64,000 bases of DNA from Natrinema salifodinae. Its GTDB lineage: Archaea; Halobacteriota; Halobacteria; Halobacteriales; Natrialbaceae. The stretch is from contig NZ_FOIS01000001.1 of assembly GCF_900110455.1 (NCBI RefSeq), forward strand, positions 744,001-808,000, given 5' to 3'. The notes under the pieces are model-generated. The model was given only the letters and a program-made list of their open reading frames with translations. It did no database searches and was not told the origin of the DNA. Position numbers and translations under genes: made by a program. Shown here one piece after another: positions 31,676-41,669 of the stretch (its first letter is position 1; each line of letters starts with the position of its first letter).

Positions 31676-31742
31676 TACGGAACTAAAGCGGTCCCAGTCG
31701 CTTAGAACTACTGTGCGACCGCCGACAAGAGCCCCGCGAGCG

Positions 31743-32531
31743 CTACGCGTCGACGCGGACGTCGAACCGCGTCGTGATCAGGACCCCCGCCGGCCTGGCC
31801 TGCAAGAACAGCCGGTACCGGCCGGGGGTCGGAAACCGCGCGCCGAACTCGACGCGACCGCTGTCTGATGCGGTCTCCGCCGGGTGGACGTGGAGATACG
31901 CGAGATCACCCTCCCGGAGCGCGACGAGGTGGCCGAGCGCACCGAGGTACGCTCCCAGTTCCGGGACCGGCTCGCCGTCGCGCCGAATCTCGAACGTCAG
32001 TCGACTCCGTTCTCGAGCGGCGACCCCGTCGGTGCGCAGTTCGATGTCGTAGCCGTCCGCCGTCGCCCGATGCGAGGAGTCCGGCCGCGCCTCGATCTCT
32101 CCCGGCCCCGACGCGAATAAATCGAACCCGAGCGTCGTCGGCTGCCCGTCAACGACGATGTCGACGAACGCGCGATAGACGCCTGGATCCGGGAGTGAGA
32201 GCCCCTCGACGCGCCACGCCCCGTCCGATTCCATGTCGGGATGCAGGTGCTGGAACCGGGTCAGGTCTCGCCGAACGAGGATGAGGTGGCTCCGTTGTCC
32301 GTGTGCCGCCTCGAAATCGGTCACGACCCGCCCGTCCTCGCCGACGATCCGGTACGTCCAGTCCGCGGACTCGCCCGGGTCGAACCGCGTCGCCGCCGGC
32401 TCGAGGCGGAGCCCGTTCGCGGCGAGCGCGAGCCCGCCTGGCGTACCGTGGCCGCCTGGCGCATAGCCGCGGGTCGGTTCCGGGCCGTCGTCGTGGCCAC
32501 CGTGATCGTCGTGGCTCGAGTGATCCGCCAT
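31743..32531 (-). CDS. His/Asp-rich protein with duplicated beta domains, possible metal binding
   Basis: 262 residues. The N-terminus MADHSSHDDHGGHDDGPEP is a His/Asp-rich stretch typical of metal-binding segments. Two beta-domain halves follow, each with a conserved histidine motif: RFQHLHPDMESDGAW and LAYLHVHPAETASD. PGVYRAFVDIV and PGRYRLFLQARPAGV are matching strands. Related proteins occur near copper or heavy-metal genes in bacteria, from memory. No signal peptide is visible, which is odd for such a role. The gene is 67 bp upstream of the GCS2-like gene on the same strand. Confidence 0.5.
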   Translation of the reverse strand: MADHSSHDDHGGHDDGPEPTRGYAPGGHGTPGGLALAANGLRLEPAATRFDPGESADWTYRIVGEDGRVVTDFEAAHGQRSHLILVRRDLTRFQHLHPDMESDGAWRVEGLSLPDPGVYRAFVDIVVDGQPTTLGFDLFASGPGEIEARPDSSHRATADGYDIELRTDGVAARERSRLTFEIRRDGEPVPELGAYLGALGHLVALREGDLAYLHVHPAETASDSGRVEFGARFPTPGRYRLFLQARPAGVLITTRFDVRVDA

Positions 32532-33189: not shown

Positions 33190-33552
33190 GATGTGCAGAG
33201 CAATCACTAGTCCAACCACTTCTTTCGGTGATTACTTCGAAGCTCTACTGAACGGCCGATTCATCCCTGCTCGGATAAGCGATCTCGCGGGAAGCGCCGT
33301 CTCACCTGTTGGAATCCGGTGAGTGCTTCCCGCCAGGCGAGCATATCGCGCGGGTTTAGCGTATCTAACTACCTCACCTCCCGATCTTAACCACAGTGAG
33401 TTGATCTCGGGAATTGTCGGATCGCGTCAGGGCGACACCGAACCGAAGGTCCACAGGCTCAGAGTCCACTGATAACGAGAACCTTTGATTCGTTAGTCGG
33501 CGAGGGTGTCCCCTCTTCCGCAACGAACAGAACGGAGAGAAATGCGCACCAT
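33190..33552. other. Interval without a recognised gene
   Basis: A minus frame (33374-33613) is open for 79 codons and reads sensibly in part (FSLSVDSEPVDLRFGVALT). It has no recognisable family and no good start, and it overlaps the duplicated rfcL promoter. I treat it as unproven. Confidence 0.4.
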
Positions 33553-33609
33553 AACCACTAAACACGGCATACATCGAGAGGATAGTATATGGATTGGACC
33601 GAGAAGTAA
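33553..33609 (+). repeat. Second copy of the rfcL upstream region and first six codons
   Basis: AACCACTAAAC and a diverged spacer lead to a perfect 25-nt match with the rfcL start (33584-33608 versus 39782-39806). The copy reads MDWTEK and then meets TAA at 33607-33609, where rfcL continues with TAC. It is therefore a non-functional duplicate or a six-codon minigene with a promoter. Confidence 0.85.
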
Positions 33610-33762
33610 CCATAATCCAGGGGCAGCCATATATTTGAACAAATTTTACTCATAGAGAATTTCCTTCAGCAGCGTTGAATCCACAGCCGCTGACATTGTG
33701 GCATGATATCTCGATCTCAGTGATGCCGAACTTTAACCGTCTGAATCGAGTACCCCGGTCTA

Positions 33763-36681
33763 ATGAATCAAACCGTTGGACGCTATGACCAGCCAGAAGT
33801 ACTGGACCTCGAAAACGGTCTCGAGGCATTTCAGTCCAGTCCTGAGTTCCGGGGCCCGGTTGAACCGTTCGACGGGCATACCTGCAACGATCACTTCGCA
33901 CATATCTATGAGACACATGAGGAGATGTTTGAGGCTGCCATCCCGTTTATTCGGCATGGACTCGAGCGCGGCGAGCGCGTCATGTATATCATCGAGAAGG
34001 GTACTGAAGCCGAGGTGCGGGAAGCGATGCGCGACGCCGGACTTGACGTTGATACCGCGCTTACTGCGGGCGCATTGACGTTCCACACCGTACAGGAGAC
34101 CTATCTCCGAAACGGATCGTTTGACCCCGACGAGATGATCGACTTCTACGGTGAGATGGTCACCGAGGCTACTGAGGACCACGAGGCGCTCCGGATTGTC
34201 GCCGAGATGACGTGGCTCAACAACGATGATACGTCGGTCGAGCAGTTCATAGAGTACGAACAGAAAATCAACGATCTCTTCGACCACACGGATTCGCTTG
34301 CGATCTGCCAGTACAACCGCAACTTGTTCGCACCGGAGGTCATCCGGAACGTCGTCCAGACGCATCCGCATCTCATCTACGACGGCGCTGCATGCCACAA
34401 CGTCTACTACACGCCACCAGAGGAGTTCTTCGGTGCCGATGCACCAGCCCGTGAAAACGAGCGCATGCTCCAGACGCTCCGGGACCGGACCATAGCGAAG
34501 GCCCAACTCCACCGCCGCGAACGATTCCTGCAATATCTCTACGAAGTCTCGTCCGATCCCACGCTCTCATTCGAGGAGAAACTGCAGGCACTGTTCGATC
34601 TCGGATGCGAGCAGTTTGGCCTCGAACTCGGGGCGATGGCCAAGGTCGACCCCGACGCCGATCAGTTCGAGATCGAATTTGTGAGTGACGATCACGAGTA
34701 CTTCGAGGCAGGTCTCGAACTCCCTCTGTCGGAAACGTACTGCACCGCAGCGACCAACACCAGCGGGATCGGGAGCGTGGCTGATCCCGTTGAGGCCGGG
34801 TACGATGATATCTACGTTCATAATGAGTTCGGCATCAAGACGTATCTCGGCACCTATATCGAGGTCGAGGGCGACGACAACCGAACGTTCTTCTTCGTGT
34901 CCGAGGAGCCGCGCGACGAGGACTTCTCGGCTAACGAGCGCACGTTCCAGCGGTTGCTGGGGCAGTGGGTCAAGTACGAACTCGAACGCCAGCAACGCGA
35001 ACAGTTCCTCCACAAGTGTTACGAGATCACGTCCGATCCCGCCCTCGACTTCGAGGAGAAACTCGAGCAGTTACTCGAACTCGGGTGCGACCAGTTCGGC
35101 CTCGAGATCGCCGGACTGAATCACTTGCCGTCATGGGACGGCAAATTCCGACTCGAGAAGGGCATCGGACTCGGCTTAGATTCCGATGAGGAGCTATGGA
35201 CCGACCCGGACAATGGCTGTTACTGCCGTCAGACCATGACCGAGGATAGTCCGGTCGAGATGGTCGACGTGCGCGACACCCATTGGGCCGAGGATACGAT
35301 CTACCAAGAGTTTGGACTAACGAGCTACCTCGGGACGAAAGTGTCGACCGGAGCCGCACCATACGGCACGCTCTGGTTTGGGAGTACCGAACTACGGGAG
35401 CGACCGTTTTCGGAGACCGAGCGCTCGTTTATCGAGTTGATGGGGCAGTGGGTCAGCTACGAAATCGAGCGGCGCGAAAACAATGATTCCCAGCGGAAGC
35501 TCTACGAAATCACCGCAAATCCCGATCTCGATCCTGACGAGAAGATTGATCAATTGCTAGAAGTCGGCTGCAAGCGGCTGAACCTACCAATTGGGATGCT
35601 CACTCGCAAACGCGAGCAGGCATTCGAGATCGAGCATATGCACGGTACGCATCCCGAGCTTGACGAAGGGTCGCTCACCCCGCCGTTGACGGACAACTAC
35701 TGCCGTCGCGTCGTCAACACTGGCAACTCGATTAGTGTCGGCGACGCTGGGGCGGCCGGATGGGACGGCGACGCGCTCTACCACGAATTCGATCTCAAAT
35801 GTTACTCTGGGACACAGGTGTTCGTCCGCGGTGAGAACTATGGCACCGTCTGTTTCACGGATCTGGCCACCCGAGAAGAATTCACCGAGGCGGAGCAGGT
35901 GTTTCTCGATATCCTCGGCCAGTGCGTGAGCTACGAAATCGAACGCCAACAGCATGAGGCCGACCTCAAGGAAACAATCGATCAACTAGAACAGTCCAAT
36001 GACCGACTGAGGCAGTTCGCCTATGCCGCCTCGCACGACCTACAGGAACCGCTCCGGATGGTTTCAACGTATCTACAGCTACTGGAGAACCGGTACAAGG
36101 AGGATCTCGACGAGGACGCGCAGGAATTCATCAATTTCGCAGTCAATGGAGCTGACCGGATGCGGGCAATGGTCGATGATCTGCTTGCGTTCTCACAGGT
36201 CGAACACGCCGGTAACGAGTTCGATTCAGTTGACTGTGACGCAGTCCTCGACCACGTCACCGACGATCTCCAGATACAGATCGAGGAGAACGACGCGGAG
36301 ATCATCAGCGAGTCACTTCCGACGGTGAGAGGCGACCAAGAGCAACTCGAACACCTATTCAGTAATCTCGTCTCAAACGCTATCAAGTATAACGAAAGTA
36401 ATCAGCCGCGCGTCGAAATCTCGGCCGACCAGCGGTCTAACCGCTGGGAATTCGCAGTTACCGATAACGGAATTGGGATCTATCCAGACGAAACGGACAA
36501 GATATTTGAAGTTTTCAAGCGGCTCCACCACGATGACGAGTACTCGGGGACAGGGGTCGGTCTCTCGCTATGCCAAAATATTGTCAACAATCACTATGGA
36601 GAAATCTGGGTCGAGTCCGAACCTGATGAGGGATCGACGTTCTCATTTACGCTTCCCGCGGGCGAGAATCCGACGCAGTAA
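33763..36681 (+). CDS. Sensor histidine kinase with MEDS and three GAF domains
   Basis: 972 residues. The N-terminal ~45-230 is a MEDS (DcmR-type sensory) domain: HFAHIYETHEEMFEAAIPF, MYIIEKGTEAEVREAM, LRIVAEMTWL and ICQYNRNLFAPEVI. Three tandem GAF-type repeats follow (~255-400, 415-570, 575-730). Each starts near YEx(S/T)xxPxLxFEEK and ends with a GQWVxYEhER helix. The transmitter has phospho-acceptor His758 (ASHDLQEPLRM) and an ATPase with NLVSNAIKYNES, DNGIGI and GTGVGLSL. No receiver or membrane segment is present, so this is a soluble sensor; the response regulator is elsewhere. A TTTAA box lies about 25 nt upstream of the ATG. Likely duplicated relative to the next kinase at its 3' end. 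Confidence 0.92.
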   Translation: MNQTVGRYDQPEVLDLENGLEAFQSSPEFRGPVEPFDGHTCNDHFAHIYETHEEMFEAAIPFIRHGLERGERVMYIIEKGTEAEVREAMRDAGLDVDTALTAGALTFHTVQETYLRNGSFDPDEMIDFYGEMVTEATEDHEALRIVAEMTWLNNDDTSVEQFIEYEQKINDLFDHTDSLAICQYNRNLFAPEVIRNVVQTHPHLIYDGAACHNVYYTPPEEFFGADAPARENERMLQTLRDRTIAKAQLHRRERFLQYLYEVSSDPTLSFEEKLQALFDLGCEQFGLELGAMAKVDPDADQFEIEFVSDDHEYFEAGLELPLSETYCTAATNTSGIGSVADPVEAGYDDIYVHNEFGIKTYLGTYIEVEGDDNRTFFFVSEEPRDEDFSANERTFQRLLGQWVKYELERQQREQFLHKCYEITSDPALDFEEKLEQLLELGCDQFGLEIAGLNHLPSWDGKFRLEKGIGLGLDSDEELWTDPDNGCYCRQTMTEDSPVEMVDVRDTHWAEDTIYQEFGLTSYLGTKVSTGAAPYGTLWFGSTELRERPFSETERSFIELMGQWVSYEIERRENNDSQRKLYEITANPDLDPDEKIDQLLEVGCKRLNLPIGMLTRKREQAFEIEHMHGTHPELDEGSLTPPLTDNYCRRVVNTGNSISVGDAGAAGWDGDALYHEFDLKCYSGTQVFVRGENYGTVCFTDLATREEFTEAEQVFLDILGQCVSYEIERQQHEADLKETIDQLEQSNDRLRQFAYAASHDLQEPLRMVSTYLQLLENRYKEDLDEDAQEFINFAVNGADRMRAMVDDLLAFSQVEHAGNEFDSVDCDAVLDHVTDDLQIQIEENDAEIISESLPTVRGDQEQLEHLFSNLVSNAIKYNESNQPRVEISADQRSNRWEFAVTDNGIGIYPDETDKIFEVFKRLHHDDEYSGTGVGLSLCQNIVNNHYGEIWVESEPDEGSTFSFTLPAGENPTQ

Positions 36682-36784
36682 GTCCACGTACCCATTCATC
36701 TCTGGTACCCGAGACCTGTCTTAAACCAATATTGACTACGACGGCTGGCCAGTATCTTCAGACCCACGCTCCGCAACCACTAAA
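36682..36784. repeat. 3' flank shared with the second kinase and rfcL promoter (copy 1)
   Basis: The 103 bp after this stop codon align without length change to 39659-39761. They end in the GACCCACGCTCCGCAACCAC block that sits immediately upstream of rfcL in the other copy. Here the similarity breaks off after CACTAAA, and no rfcL start follows. Confidence 0.8.
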
Positions 36785-37006
36785 TTGCGCGGAGCAGTTC
36801 CGAGCGAAGCAAGCAATCCCGAGGTGGGAAAATCTACGCTAAAAAAGCCGCTCGCTCTCGAACGGGTCCAGCACTTGTGACTCGACCGGAAGGATAACGC
36901 CTCCGCTTATATTGTCCGTTGCGAGCAGTTACATTTATTTTATACACTAAAAACCCAGATCTCGAACGTCGGGAGGCTTATCCCACTTAATCTCTACCAA
37001 AGGTAT

Positions 37007-39658
37007 ATGAGTACTCGTGCGGGCGCTAACGAAGAGGGATTTTGGAGAGATGTCGACGACGATGTCGCGCTCCATCGATACCAGACGCTCGTAGACACGA
37101 TTGCTGATGGGATCTACCAACTCGATGCGGACGGGTATTTCGTGGCTGTCAACAATGTTATCCTCGAGACGACTGGCTATGCTCGTGACGAACTCCTCGG
37201 TGAACACGTCTCGCTTCTCTTCGATGATGCCGATATCGAACGCATCGAACGCGAAATAGAGAGCCGACTCGAAACGAATGGCGACGACATCGCTACCTTC
37301 GAACTCGCCGCCCGTACTGCTGACGGCGACACAGTTCCATTCGAACTGCGGCTCAACCCGTTGATAGAGGACAGTGAGTTTCGGGGGACAATCGGCGTCG
37401 CTCGTGATCGCTCCGAGAAAGAACGCCGACAGGACACAGTCGAATCAACGAAGGCATCGCACGAGTCGATTACGAGCATCATCGACAAGGCCGATATCGG
37501 CGTCTGCGTCCTCACTGAGGACTCCGAGGTCGCATGGGCCGACGAAACTCTCGAACGGTACTTCGGTCTCGAGCGTGCGGACCTCCTCGAGCGGAACAGC
37601 TGGACGGTCATCGACGATACCCTCAAGACCAGATTCGCGGACCCGAACCGCTTCGCTGAAACCATCCTCTCTTCGTACGATGACAATATCTATATTGACA
37701 GTTTCGAGTGTCGGGTCAGCGGCGACAGAGACACCGTCGAAGAACGATGGCTCAAGTACCAGAGTAAACCGATTGAATCGGGGGAATTCGCCGGTGGGCG
37801 GGTCGAACTGTACTACGATATTACCGATCAGAAGCAATCGGAAGGGGCTCTACAGGAAAGTAAAGAAGAGTTCGAGTCCCTGGTTGATGCAGTCGAGGAG
37901 TACGCGATCTTCCGGTTAGACACGGATGGACACGTCATCAGTTGGAACAGAGGCGCACAGAACCTCAAGGGCTACGACCGCGAGGAGATCCTTGGCGAGC
38001 ATTTTTCGACGTTTTATACCAGTGCAGATCGTGCGGAAGACGTTCCTAAACGGAACCTCGAGACTGCGACCGAGAAGGGTTCCGTTGAGGATGAGGGATG
38101 GCGCGTTAGAAAGGACGGCGCGCGATTCTGGGCGAACGTAACGATCACGGAGATTCGAGACGATGATGGCACTCATCGTGGGTATCTCAAGGTAACACGC
38201 GATATGACTACCCGTCATAAACGTGAACAGGAACTCGAAAGCGAACTCCAGCGTATTCTCAGCAGGATCTCCGACGCGTTCTACGCGGTTGACGTCGAGT
38301 ACCGGTTCACCCACGTCAACGAACGCGCTGCGGAACTCCTCCAACACTCCGAGGAGGAACTACTCGGCGAGCAACTCTGGGACGTATTTCCCGATCTCGT
38401 TGATCTCGATGAAGTCTGGGATGCCTTCCACACAGCGTTGGAAACACAAGAACCGACCAGCTACGAACTCTACTACGATACGCTCGACTTCTGGGTCGAG
38501 GCCAATCTCTATCCCTCCGAAACCGGTATCTCGGTTTACTTCCGCGATGTCACTAGACGCCGAGAGCGCGAACAGGCACTCGAGAAGTCTGAACAGCGCT
38601 ACCGCACCCTCGCCGAGTACTTCCCGAACGGCGTCGTCATGCTGTTCAATCATGACCTCGAATACACGTTAGCGGCTGGTCAAGGATTCGATAGAATACC
38701 GGTCGCACCAGCCGATCTCGAGGGTTACCAGTTCCACGACGTCTGGCCCGACGAGACCGCTGACGCTATCAAGCCAGCGTTGGACGCTGCCCTCAACGGC
38801 GAGGAGCAATCAGTCGAACTTGAATACGCCGGTCGGGAATGGGTGCTCTACGCGGTCCCGATCACTGACAGCCGCGGTGATATCTTTGCCGGGGTGACGA
38901 TGGCTCACGATATCACCGAACGGAAGGAGAACGAGCGCAAACTCGAAAAGACGATTTCGCGACTCGAGGAGTCCAACAAACGGTTAGAACAGTTCGCCTA
39001 CGCAGCGTCGCACGATCTGCAGGAACCGTTACGGATGGTCTCGAGTTATCTCCAACTCATCGAGCGCCGCTACGCCGACGAGTTCGACGAGGAGGGCGAG
39101 GAGTTCCTCGAGTTCGCCGTCGATGGTGCAGATCGGATGCGGAACATGATCGAGGGGTTACTGGCGTACTCGCGGATCGAGACGGAGGGTGAGCCATTCG
39201 AACCAGTTAATCTCGATTCCATCCTCGAGAGCGTACTGGAGGATTTACAACTCCAGATCGAGGAGACGAACGCCGAAATCACGACCGAACATCTACCTCG
39301 CGTTGCGGGTGACGCCAGTCAGTTGCGGCAGGTGTTCCAGAATCTCCTGAGCAACGCACTCGAGTACAGCGGGGACGAGCCACCGCAGGTTCACGTCGAT
39401 TGCGACCAACGGGGTCGAGAGTGGACGATCTCGGTTCGCGACGAGGGCGTTGGAATGGATCCCGACGATCAAGATCGTATCTTCGAGGTATTCGAGCGTC
39501 TCCACGGTCGCGAGGAACATTCCGGCACTGGAATCGGTCTCGCAATCTGTCAGCGCGTCATCGAACGGCATGGCGGCGACATTTGGGTCGACTCCGAACC
39601 CGGCGCGGGAACGACGTTCTCATTTACACTTCCCGCGGCACGGAATCCGACGCAGTGA
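37007..39658 (+). CDS. Multi-PAS sensor histidine kinase
   Basis: 883 residues with about five PAS domains. They start near residues 25 (TLVDTIADGIYQLDADGYF), 150 (ITSIIDKADIGVCVLTEDS), 285 (LVDAVEEYAIFRLDTDG), 410 (ILSRISDAFYAVDVEYRF) and 530 (LAEYFPNGVVMLFNHDL). The transmitter has His669 (ASHDLQEPLRM), an N box NLLSNALEYSGDEPP and G boxes DEGVGM and GTGIGLAI. The transmitter closely resembles that of the upstream kinase, while the sensor parts differ. There is no receiver domain and no clear membrane segment. The output partner is unknown; an A/T box lies ~26-31 nt before the start. Confidence 0.92.
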   Translation: MSTRAGANEEGFWRDVDDDVALHRYQTLVDTIADGIYQLDADGYFVAVNNVILETTGYARDELLGEHVSLLFDDADIERIEREIESRLETNGDDIATFELAARTADGDTVPFELRLNPLIEDSEFRGTIGVARDRSEKERRQDTVESTKASHESITSIIDKADIGVCVLTEDSEVAWADETLERYFGLERADLLERNSWTVIDDTLKTRFADPNRFAETILSSYDDNIYIDSFECRVSGDRDTVEERWLKYQSKPIESGEFAGGRVELYYDITDQKQSEGALQESKEEFESLVDAVEEYAIFRLDTDGHVISWNRGAQNLKGYDREEILGEHFSTFYTSADRAEDVPKRNLETATEKGSVEDEGWRVRKDGARFWANVTITEIRDDDGTHRGYLKVTRDMTTRHKREQELESELQRILSRISDAFYAVDVEYRFTHVNERAAELLQHSEEELLGEQLWDVFPDLVDLDEVWDAFHTALETQEPTSYELYYDTLDFWVEANLYPSETGISVYFRDVTRRREREQALEKSEQRYRTLAEYFPNGVVMLFNHDLEYTLAAGQGFDRIPVAPADLEGYQFHDVWPDETADAIKPALDAALNGEEQSVELEYAGREWVLYAVPITDSRGDIFAGVTMAHDITERKENERKLEKTISRLEESNKRLEQFAYAASHDLQEPLRMVSSYLQLIERRYADEFDEEGEEFLEFAVDGADRMRNMIEGLLAYSRIETEGEPFEPVNLDSILESVLEDLQLQIEETNAEITTEHLPRVAGDASQLRQVFQNLLSNALEYSGDEPPQVHVDCDQRGREWTISVRDEGVGMDPDDQDRIFEVFERLHGREEHSGTGIGLAICQRVIERHGGDIWVDSEPGAGTTFSFTLPAARNPTQ

Positions 39659-39761
39659 GTCCACGTACGTACTGCTCTCGGGAACCTGATCCCGTCTCAA
39701 ACCAACATCGACTACGACGGCTGTCTCAGTATCTTCGGACCCACGCTCCGCAACCACTAAA
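39659..39761. repeat. 3' flank shared by the two kinases, here leading into rfcL (copy 2)
   Basis: This is the partner of 36682-36784. It is followed by the rfcL start at 39787, so the shared block is the rfcL promoter region itself. Confidence 0.8.
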
Positions 39762-39786
39762 CGCGGTACGCACCGATAGACAGTAT

Positions 39787-41274
39787 ATGGATTGGACCGA
39801 GAAGTACCGTCCGACGACGCTGTCGGAGGTACGCGGAAACAACAAGGCCCGCGACAAACTCGAGGAATGGGCCGAGACCTGGGACGAGCACCAAAAGTCG
39901 GTGATCGTCCACGGCAGCCCCGGCGTCGGGAAGACCTCCGCTGCCCACGCGTTGGCCGACGACATGGGGTGGCCGGTGATGGAACTCAACGCCAGCGACA
40001 ACCGCCAGGCGGACGTCATCGAGCGGATCGCCGGCGAGGCCTCCAAGAGCGGCACGCTCACCGGCGGCGAAGCGGGTCGCCGGCTCGTGATCCTAGACGA
40101 GGCGGACAACTTCCACGGCAACGCCGACTACGGCGGTTCGCGGGAGGTCACCCGCGTCGTCAAGGACGCCAACCAACCGGTTGTCCTCGTGGCCAACGAG
40201 TTCTACGACATGAGCCAGTCGCTCCGGAACGCGTGCGAGACGATCGAGTTCCGCGACGTCTCGAAGCGGTCGATCGTCCCCGTTCTGCGGGACATCTGTC
40301 GCCGCGAGGACGTCGAGTTCGAAGAGACGGCCCTCGAAAAGATCGCGGAATCGACCAGCGGCGACCTGCGATCGGCGGTCAACGACCTCCAGGCGGTCGC
40401 CGAGGAGGCCGAGCGGCTGACCGTCGACGACGTCGTCACGAGCGAGCGCGACACCACCGAGGGGATCTTCGACTTCCTCGACGCGCTCATCAAGGAGGAA
40501 GACGCCGAGGGAGCGCTGCGGGCCTCTTACGACGTCGACGAGAACCCCGACGAGATGCTGAACTGGATCGAGGACAACGTCCCGAAGGACTACGCGGGCG
40601 CCGAACTGGCCGACGCCTACGAGTTCCTCGCGAACGCCGACCGCTGGCTCGGCCGGGTGCGCTCGACCCAGAACTACTCGTTCTGGCGGTACGCGACGGA
40701 CAACATGACCGCCGGGGTCGCGGCCTCCCGACGCGAGCCCAAGGGCGGCTGGACCCGCTACGGGCCGCCGAGCTACTGGTCGAAGCTTGGTCGCAGCAAG
40801 GGGACCCGGAACACCCGCGACTCGATCGCCGAGCGCATCGCCGAGCGCGAAGGGGCGAGCGTCGCCACCGCTCGTCGAGAGATCCTCCCGTTCCTCTCGA
40901 CGATGACCCACCACTGCAAGAACCGCGAACTGACGATCCGCATGGCCGCCGCCTACGATCTCGACGAATCCGAGGTCTCGTTCGTCACCGGCAGCGGGAA
41001 AGACACCAACAAGGTCCAGTCGATCGTCGAGGAGGCCGAGGAGCGCACGGCCGAGGAAACGGTCGAGCACTCCGGCAACGCCTTCTTCGAGGCCGACCGC
41101 TCGAGCGGCGACCAGGCCGCCACGGCCGACACCGACGATGACGGAAACGACCAGCAGACGCTCGCGGCCGCGGAGGGCGACGACGGCAGTACTGCGGAGC
41201 CGGACTCGGTCGCGGACGACGCGACGGCCGACGAACCCGACGAAGACCAATCGGGGCTTAGCGACTTCCTCTGA
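39787..41274 (+). CDS. rfcL: Replication factor C large subunit (clamp loader)
   Basis: 495 residues. Together with RFC small subunits it loads the PCNA clamp onto primed DNA using ATP. AAA+ motifs are Walker A GSPGVGKT (43-50) and Walker B VILDEADNFHG, with sensor 1 NEFYDMS. MDWTEKYRPTTLSEVRGN is the family N-terminus. A long acidic tail ends in QSGLSDFL, which fits the PIP-box consensus that binds PCNA. The ATG is 26 nt after a promoter region duplicated at 33553 and 36682. No neighbour is functionally linked. Confidence 0.96.
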   Translation: MDWTEKYRPTTLSEVRGNNKARDKLEEWAETWDEHQKSVIVHGSPGVGKTSAAHALADDMGWPVMELNASDNRQADVIERIAGEASKSGTLTGGEAGRRLVILDEADNFHGNADYGGSREVTRVVKDANQPVVLVANEFYDMSQSLRNACETIEFRDVSKRSIVPVLRDICRREDVEFEETALEKIAESTSGDLRSAVNDLQAVAEEAERLTVDDVVTSERDTTEGIFDFLDALIKEEDAEGALRASYDVDENPDEMLNWIEDNVPKDYAGAELADAYEFLANADRWLGRVRSTQNYSFWRYATDNMTAGVAASRREPKGGWTRYGPPSYWSKLGRSKGTRNTRDSIAERIAEREGASVATARREILPFLSTMTHHCKNRELTIRMAAAYDLDESEVSFVTGSGKDTNKVQSIVEEAEERTAEETVEHSGNAFFEADRSSGDQAATADTDDDGNDQQTLAAAEGDDGSTAEPDSVADDATADEPDEDQSGLSDFL

Positions 41275-41456
41275 GCGGAATCCGCGGGGTTCAGCTGTCT
41301 TTTTCTACCGACACTGTCAACACACGGGTCACTGATGGCAGCGGTCGAGAGTCCGCCAGGCGCCACCGAACCGCGATGATCCGGGTTCTCCCTCGAGGAT
41401 ATGTCTATACATTGGGTGATAGACACTATTACGTCGATGACCGTCGAGAGGATAGT

Positions 41457-41669
41457 ATGATGACCGGCAGCATAACTGAGTCCCACGGCTGCCCGCTCTG
41501 TACGGAGTCGTACGACGACCGCATGGACCTCCGAGTCCATCTGGAGGTCGAACATCGGAAATCCGAAGTCGTCGCTTACTTGATGGAGTTCGACGCGGCG
41601 GTAACCGACGTCTCGGCCGATCGAGAACCGCCGACGGTCGACGAGGAGCGGTCGGCGCCCTCGGCTTGA
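41457..41669 (+). CDS. C2H2-type zinc-finger small protein
   Basis: About 70 residues from the ATG pair at 41457/41460 (MMTGSITESHGCPLC). The motif CPLCTESYDDRMDLRVHLEVEH gives Cys-x2-Cys and His-x4-His spacing, a classic C2H2 finger. The rest is an acidic tail (VSADREPPTVDEERSAP). The frame is open upstream to 41376, but that part has little coding character. Probably a nucleic-acid-binding or regulatory microprotein; its target is unknown. Confidence 0.65.
   Translation: MMTGSITESHGCPLCTESYDDRMDLRVHLEVEHRKSEVVAYLMEFDAAVTDVSADREPPTVDEERSAPSA

Follow-up and report, generated by a model that had tools for sequence, protein, structure and literature searches.

SXT is a conjugative element with its own integrase, and the gene cassettes of integrons are small, lack a recombinase and stack at one site. 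The dusA-specific islands and IMEs insert at the 5′ end of a protein-coding housekeeping gene, are bordered by short direct repeats of 21 bp, carry very diverse cargo at one site and have the integrase as their only universal gene (PMC4482086, PMC8409611). The ICE SXT has prfC as its site (PMC8409611). For archaeal tyrosine-recombinase elements, flanking direct repeats of 8 to over 100 bp and a restored target are described (PMC8371274).

The cassettes that we describe here at the 5′ end of the haloarchaeal gene rfcL resemble them in their 5′-end site, short repeats (21 bp there, 23–25 nt here) and diverse cargo. Judging from the alignments, the rfcL cassettes appear to share with dusA/prfC-type insertions a fixed 5′-end site, flanking repeats and a promoter and N-terminus supplied in frame; they depart from them in the integrase, which the dusA islands encode themselves and which was not seen among the cassette ORFs scanned. 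Unlike the dusA islands, they are archaeal, measure only ~0.8–3.2 kb, target a clamp-loader gene and stack. Integron cassettes are likewise small, recombinase-free and stacked at one site, but no integrase was found on the contig of the window (the whole 64,000-nt stretch of Natrinema salifodinae DNA analyzed here), and the rfcL cassettes carry the promoter and start of their target gene. Flanking direct repeats and a restored target are also known from the archaeal tyrosine-recombinase elements; the available portion of that source (PMC8371274) contains no description of an rfcL target or of integrase-free cassettes. No description of rfcL as an insertion site was found in the literature searched, a body that leaves most subscription journals aside. 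As far as that literature goes, the rfcL start site is a previously undescribed variation on 5′-end integration, and only proof of both a recombinase acting in trans and a set of cassettes free of integrase would make it a new kind.

The first-pass annotation of the window had noted a duplicate of the rfcL promoter and first codons on the far side of two kinases and had read it as a scar of insertion or recombination that restored the gene. The duplication itself is confirmed, and the features involved are as follows.

33545-33609, + strand: c1, truncated left copy of the rfcL start, insertion scar (attL-like); the junction matches that of G069 and is decayed in G086. It contains the promoter box AACCACTAAAC (33553-33563), the ATG (33589), MDWTEK and the stop codon TAA (33607-33609).
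33610-33762, + strand: left end of the K1 cassette (CCATAATCC...), shared by G069 and G086 and, in part, by the g28 genomes.
33763-36681, + strand: K1, sensor histidine kinase, cassette cargo (MEDS, GAF-like, HisKA and HATPase_c).
36598-36784, + strand: c2, K1 tail, intergenic region and promoter box (36775-36784), forming the right end of the K1 cassette.
36785-37006, + strand: stretch before K2, joining c2 at the promoter box.
37007-39658, + strand: K2, PAS-rich sensor histidine kinase (PAS domains, HisKA and HATPase_c).
39659-39786, + strand: c3, K1-type intergenic region and predicted current rfcL promoter (box, 39752-39762).
39782-39806, + strand: right copy of the 25-nt core (attR-like), identical to c1 over 25 nt.
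39787-41274, + strand: rfcL, replication factor C large subunit, frame intact (NCBIfam NF003228).

Positions 33584-33608 (AGTATATGGATTGGACCGAGAAGTA) match 39782-39806 exactly over 25 nt at a spacing of 6198 nt, and the ~6.2-kb block that they bracket holds both histidine kinases (33763-36681 and 37007-39658), as annotated, each with HisKA and HATPase_c above curated cut-offs. The upstream copy translates as MDWTEK followed by TAA (33589-33609) and the downstream copy as MDWTEKYRP; the additional upstream similarity noted before reaches 33545, across the AACCACTAAAC promoter box, in an alignment of 33545-33608 with 39744-39806 that contains one gap. The right copy of the core takes in five nt ahead of the ATG of the working rfcL, its codons 1–6 and two nt of codon 7; the rfcL product scores 889.7 bits against NCBIfam NF003228 (cut-off, 456). 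The distance between box and ATG suggests that the box acts as the promoter of a leaderless rfcL transcript. This box is present three times in the window (c1, c2 and c3), the copy overlooked by the first-pass annotation lying in 36598-36784 (kinase 1 tail, intergenic region and box), which repeats 39575-39761 at ~80%. Separately, 15 nt near a candidate start of the ORF downstream of rfcL (41444-41458; TCGAGAGGATAGTAT) are identical to c1 at 33574-33588 and absent from c3; part of the c1 promoter was perhaps exchanged with that of this ORF. Further upstream, positions 31740-32462 of the window resemble g28 genomes at 78–80%.

As a control, exact direct repeats of ≥20 nt lying 300–10,000 nt apart were collected from both strands of the window plus 400 kb of the same replicon; to count, the downstream copy had to cover a candidate start and extend ≥15 nt inside an ORF of ≥150 codons. 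The rfcL repeat was the sole start duplication of this kind on either strand of the window, and none was found on either strand of the 400 kb (23 repeats per strand), which makes it, by these criteria, the single such start duplication across 464 kb of genome.

Truncated rfcL starts were then sought in 69 rfcL regions (the window, 28 from the same genus, 36 from other genera of the family and 4 from other families) with a pattern that required the core with box, or the core with at most one mismatch. Upstream of rfcL, 26 such starts were found on the coding strand versus 3 on the other strand. As this core pattern includes the GT at the break, it could overlook breaks that lie earlier; searching with the box only (four mismatches allowed) yielded 25 upstream boxes versus 0 on the other strand. 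As many as 23 of the 25 run into an rfcL start, with the likeness ending 13–20 nt after the GAY codon, at or near GAGAAGT, and the two without a start are c2 of the window and a box in G115. The latter (L183, family f12) has one mismatch and lies at −190, between a p31 relative and rfcL. Native rfcL is preceded by the box AACCACTAAAC (up to two mismatches) within 60 nt in 66 of the 69 regions. By sequence, start and frame are kept on the right side in all cassettes shown, and the flanking direct repeats span 25 nt in the window and 23 nt in G087.

All 28 other genomes of the window's genus contain rfcL. Our own tally from the scar scan and cassette searches (29 genomes, including the window's) gives a truncated start in 12, an intact pair without visible scar in 2, remnants in 4 and nothing in 11. 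In 7 of the 28, rfcL lies 166–244 nt from a divergent GCS2-like gene. Three oddities of gene content were also seen. In G022 (L093), rfcL is split over matches in different frames, which may be a frameshift or a sequencing error; G021 has two rfcL copies with identical scores on contigs C1 and C4, either a duplication or a duplicated assembly piece; and CP031304.1, a 987-kb record of Natrinema thermotolerans listed as a plasmid, contains a gene annotated as replication factor C large subunit.

Sorted by cargo, the 26 scars comprise 20 with VapBC-like genes, three with K1 (window, G069 and G086) and one each in G002, G055 and G087, and the cassettes measure roughly 0.8–3.2 kb each. The VapBC-type cassette (~0.8 kb) consists of a PIN-domain gene (PF01850, 35.3 bits; cut-off, 23.6) and a small AbrB-like gene, a putative antitoxin that scores 19 bits to AbrB TIGR01439, below the 28.3 cut-off; a similar pair on a plasmid is annotated as PIN and AbrB/MazE/SpoVT. 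The cargo of G002 includes HTH_10/BAT, response regulator and HalOD1 domains, that of G055 membrane-protein-like ORFs (the one scanned had no Pfam match) and that of G087 a GH16-like protein. All of this unrelated cargo (K1, VapBC, G002, G055 and G087) has a common break within a few nt, the break in G055 being ~3 nt earlier or mutated.

In the named collection of 59 VapC loci, 40 lie directly upstream of rfcL, at 50–163 nt, 19 of them with a scar. The other 19, including Haloferax loci, were not seen near rfcL (in the case of L334, the contig ends there), and a search of 18 of these 19 for a duplicated neighbor start gave no clear rfcL-like case. At one of them, L335 of Halalkalicoccus paucihalophilus, a diverged direct repeat of ~390 nt flanks the VapBC locus and also covers the start of a 78-aa ORF. 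At another, L312 of Haloferax gibbonsii, VapBC lies between two CCCCACGACTTCATCTGTT copies, at approximately −760 and +200 of VapC, with near-identical surroundings; these copies may be another attachment site. VapC relatives were present in two plasmid records (E 1e-20), and none were found in phage records or in viral contigs. Cassettes also stack. Specifically, the order in G357 is K1, truncated start, VapBC and rfcL, and that in G069 is vapC remnant, truncated start, K1 and rfcL; in G010, a vapC remnant precedes a second VapBC.

The K1 cassette recurs beyond the genus of the window. A search with the first 729 residues of K1, in which two candidates were scored in each of 392 genomes from the order, returned five proteins at 91–100% identity, including the window's own, and the next best among the candidates scored reached 64%. 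All five, as well as the separately found protein of G069, are encoded directly upstream of rfcL (with K2 between in the window), and the carriers span four genera by genome labels. Over its first ~730 residues, K1 is 91–92% identical to the K1 proteins upstream of rfcL in G075, G086, G397, G357 and G069. The truncated start of G069 (GAGAAGTAACCATAAT) equals the window junction, with the rfcL promoter, ATGACCGACTGGACCGAGAAGTA and then ACCATAATTCGG to the left of K1; the same scar is present in G086 in decayed form, and no scar copy was found left of K1 in G397, G075 or G357. On the right side of K1 in G357, the rfcL start is in turn cut short at GAGAAGT, and another cassette follows it. None of the 28 same-genus genomes has a K1 or K2 relative above 60 bits in the 11.2–12.6 kb upstream of rfcL, and plasmid records contain K1 relatives in 103 cases, all below 60%. 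A different K1-like kinase (45–68%) was observed in G051 (L133, −2.1 to 0 kb of rfcL), where a vapC tail separates it from rfcL; it is perhaps another kinase cassette on a VapBC-type right end.

Filled and empty left flanks were compared in 13 cases, in 52-nt windows over ~400 nt. Four of the 13 are clean: G357 versus G075 and versus G397 (90–100% each), G010 versus G011 (90–100%) and G002 versus G022 (73–98%). Partial agreement was found for G009 (L078) versus G021 (79–94%, save one window at 52%) and versus G007 (37–92%), for G002 (L073) versus G028 (60–88%) and for G016 (L071) versus G025/G015 (73–92% over the last ~100 nt, 46–75% over the rest), and the pairs G069/G085, G019/G013 and G087/G055 are poor (44–85%). 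The left flank of the window does not align with that of G002, and no relative sharing it with an empty site was found. Hence, the search for empty sites succeeded for sisters with other cassettes but not for the window's exact left flank; the opposite picture, in which relatives show the same two copies and no empty site, was not seen. Between G357 and G075, rfcL is 92–100% alike and the preceding 40 nt are 70% alike, which indicates that the promoter was swapped and the gene body kept.

In some lineages, cassettes have also moved between genera. The VapBC cassettes of L071/L078 (g1) and L140/L174 (g16) are 98–99% identical, compared with 83–88% for rfcL, and this identity begins at the scar and drops within the first ~65 nt of rfcL; the right border of the transfer cannot be placed more finely because these ~65 nt are nearly invariant in these genomes. 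Among 208 between-genus pairs of 24 carriers, cassette identity exceeded rfcL identity by ≥8 points in 16, and the median excess was 1.2 points. Recent cassette jumps are thus clear in some lineages, and most pairs are compatible with old co-inheritance.

We consider it likely that small cassettes, which stack and restore the gene, land repeatedly and at a specific position in the 5′ end of rfcL. A cassette would enter after MTDWTEK or MDWTEK (ATGACCGACTGGACNGAGAAGT|), leaving the previous promoter and start behind on the left as a dead copy, and the right end of the cassette would supply its own rfcL promoter region and the first six or seven codons. Since the cassette brings a promoter and first codons, rfcL would be restored, often with a foreign promoter, and since the next cassette would enter at the new start, cassettes would stack. 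The alignments document the junctions, the before/after pairs, the cassette-only transfer between genera in some lineages, the stacking and an end motif described below. The insertion scar that restored rfcL, as proposed for the window alone, is well supported as a general feature beyond it by the same junction in relatives, by other cassettes and by filled/empty sister pairs. The recurrent breaks at the same place bear that proposal out, but the window itself probably records more than one event: the arrival of K1, of the kind just described, and that of K2, which is less clean and appears to have taken its tail and promoter from a K1-type cassette.

What moves the cassettes is a more evenly balanced question. 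We favor an integrase-type recombinase supplied in trans, as a comparison with the dusA and prfC islands would suggest, at about even confidence, over spread by homologous recombination alone. More tentatively still, and on somewhat lower expectation, haloarchaea may possess an archaeal cassette system of integrase-free cassettes with conserved ends, with the rfcL start as attachment site and the recombinase encoded elsewhere. A motif, RTGTAY/RTACAY, starts +21 to +25 after GAGAAGT in 20 of 34 left ends (shuffled mean, 0.48), occurs 0–3 times in other windows of the same size and is found in 0 of 69 native rfcL genes. The 34 ends comprise the 26 scanned scars and 8 of the 19 named scars (the other 11 were taken as already included), and they contain the 12 ends in which the motif was first noticed. 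As most of them are homologous VapBC ends and not independent, the weight of the motif rests on the non-VapBC ends: it is present in G002, G055, G087 and K1 of G069 and absent from K1 of the window and of G086, i.e., present in one of three K1 left ends. In G087 (L130), TACACA-type repeats flank the core, preceding the right start and following the left break, in the manner of arm sites.

No integrase was detected by Pfam in K1, K2, the VapBC pair or six ORFs from G002, G055 and G087 (one cut to 260 aa). All 14 Phage_integrase matches of the window's own genome lie on contigs other than that of rfcL. When the longest ORFs from these 14 integrase loci were compared with the 69 regions by tblastn, matches ≤2 kb from rfcL occurred in three regions (G094, G061 and K2 of the window), and K2 was the only match in the scanned cassettes. 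We reject the K2 match as an integrase, as it pairs residues 253–367 of a 709-aa frame, in our reading not the integrase part, with the PAS part of K2, and the G061 match, for which the query ORF reads as a membrane protein. In G094 (L184), a tyrosine-integrase gene, real by its Pfam-derived relatives, lies 0.8–1.9 kb upstream of rfcL beside a decayed VapBC remnant; it is not tied to the cassettes because the nearest relative of this integrase, in G131, is encoded 60 kb away from rfcL. The junction (left-end) pattern had no match in viral contigs. The 16-nt core occurred there in at least 80 stretches, of which, among the matches listed, three passed a promoter-or-ATG filter and none of these was rfcL-like, and longer core patterns gave three and two matches. 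A core-plus-motif pattern, strict enough to miss many scars, including that of the window, matched 8 of 212 genomes, five at rfcL and three without DWTEKY in forward frames; in these 212 genomes and the viral contigs, neither a circular form nor a copy of a cassette junction outside rfcL was found, which counts against the cassette reading.

The absence of an integrase from the scanned cassettes counts against the favored reading and for homologous recombination alone, in which each cassette type would have arisen once and spread through its rfcL-start flanks with no recombinase, by crossovers in the box (~20 nt), in the core or in the first 65 nt of rfcL, which hardly vary. We regard this main rival as a serious possibility, although one with appreciably less than an even chance. 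The duplicated start is itself homology, and different genera have almost the same box and first 65 nt of rfcL. One spacer is common to both copies in ~7 of 18 VapBC cases (judged by eye, in 18 of the 20 VapBC scars), which fits gene conversion and counts against the site-specific model, since a single core crossover does not give the same spacer twice. Against homologous recombination alone, unrelated cargo has a common break, and some of it shares an end motif at a fixed distance. Moreover, the left spacer of L071 and L078 is host-like, which places the crossovers in the core rather than in the longer stretch of box and spacer, and the two copies in G087 share only the 23-nt core. Sequence diversity was also considered: in the window's genus, 4-fold diversity at codons 1–12 is 0.146, the lowest of 27 windows, followed by 0.191 at codons 13–24. 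However, this argument for recombination is weak because the dip is not special, with 0.178 at codons 37–48, and because, across 20 genomes of other genera, codons 1–12 (0.256) do not have the lowest value.

A local tandem duplication of kinase and promoter in one genome, with no incoming cassette, is very improbable. It draws on the likeness of K1 and K2, whose tails, intergenic regions and promoter boxes are ~80% alike. Yet the close likeness of K2 to K1 is confined to the final ~85 nt of the gene and the intergenic region (in 40-nt windows, 48–70% before these ~85 nt versus 75–100% after), and in other genera K1 precedes rfcL with no K2 in between, the left junction being the same in G069. 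In addition, the stretch before the window's rfcL is 93% identical to G086 and at most 70% identical to the other genomes aligned (L128 and L169 left out). As the sole cause, local duplication is therefore rejected for K1 and survives only as part of the K2 step. Returning to cassette insertion, c2 breaks off inside the promoter box, not at codon 7, and its start codons are missing. We read K2 as a second arrival with a tail and promoter derived from a K1-type cassette, which is the least certain step; the tail was probably acquired when the conserved end of the kinase domain recombined.

Chance, or convergence on a second start-like site kept for regulation, for which one could cite only the intact c1 promoter box that might still fire, is so improbable as to be negligible: the repeat control (0 comparable cases in 400 kb) rejects a chance repeat, 25 identical nt form the single such case in 464 kb by the criteria used, the same structure recurs at rfcL in many genomes and only on the coding strand in the box search, and the filled/empty pairs refute both variants.

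The clamp-loader gene is essential. If the proposed landing site is real, rfcL would be a haloarchaeal gene-capture hot spot at a replication gene rather than a tRNA gene, and the pairs G357 with G075/G397, G002 with G022 and G010 with G011 open its mechanism to direct testing. As foreign sequence replaces the region before rfcL in several lineages, clamp-loader expression may differ between strains. A cassette would become hard to lose by providing the clamp-loader gene with its promoter and N-terminus, and a toxin-antitoxin pair would be added by many cassettes. Toxin-antitoxin-like genes tied to the rfcL promoter would offer a concrete and testable example of a selfish cassette that resists deletion.
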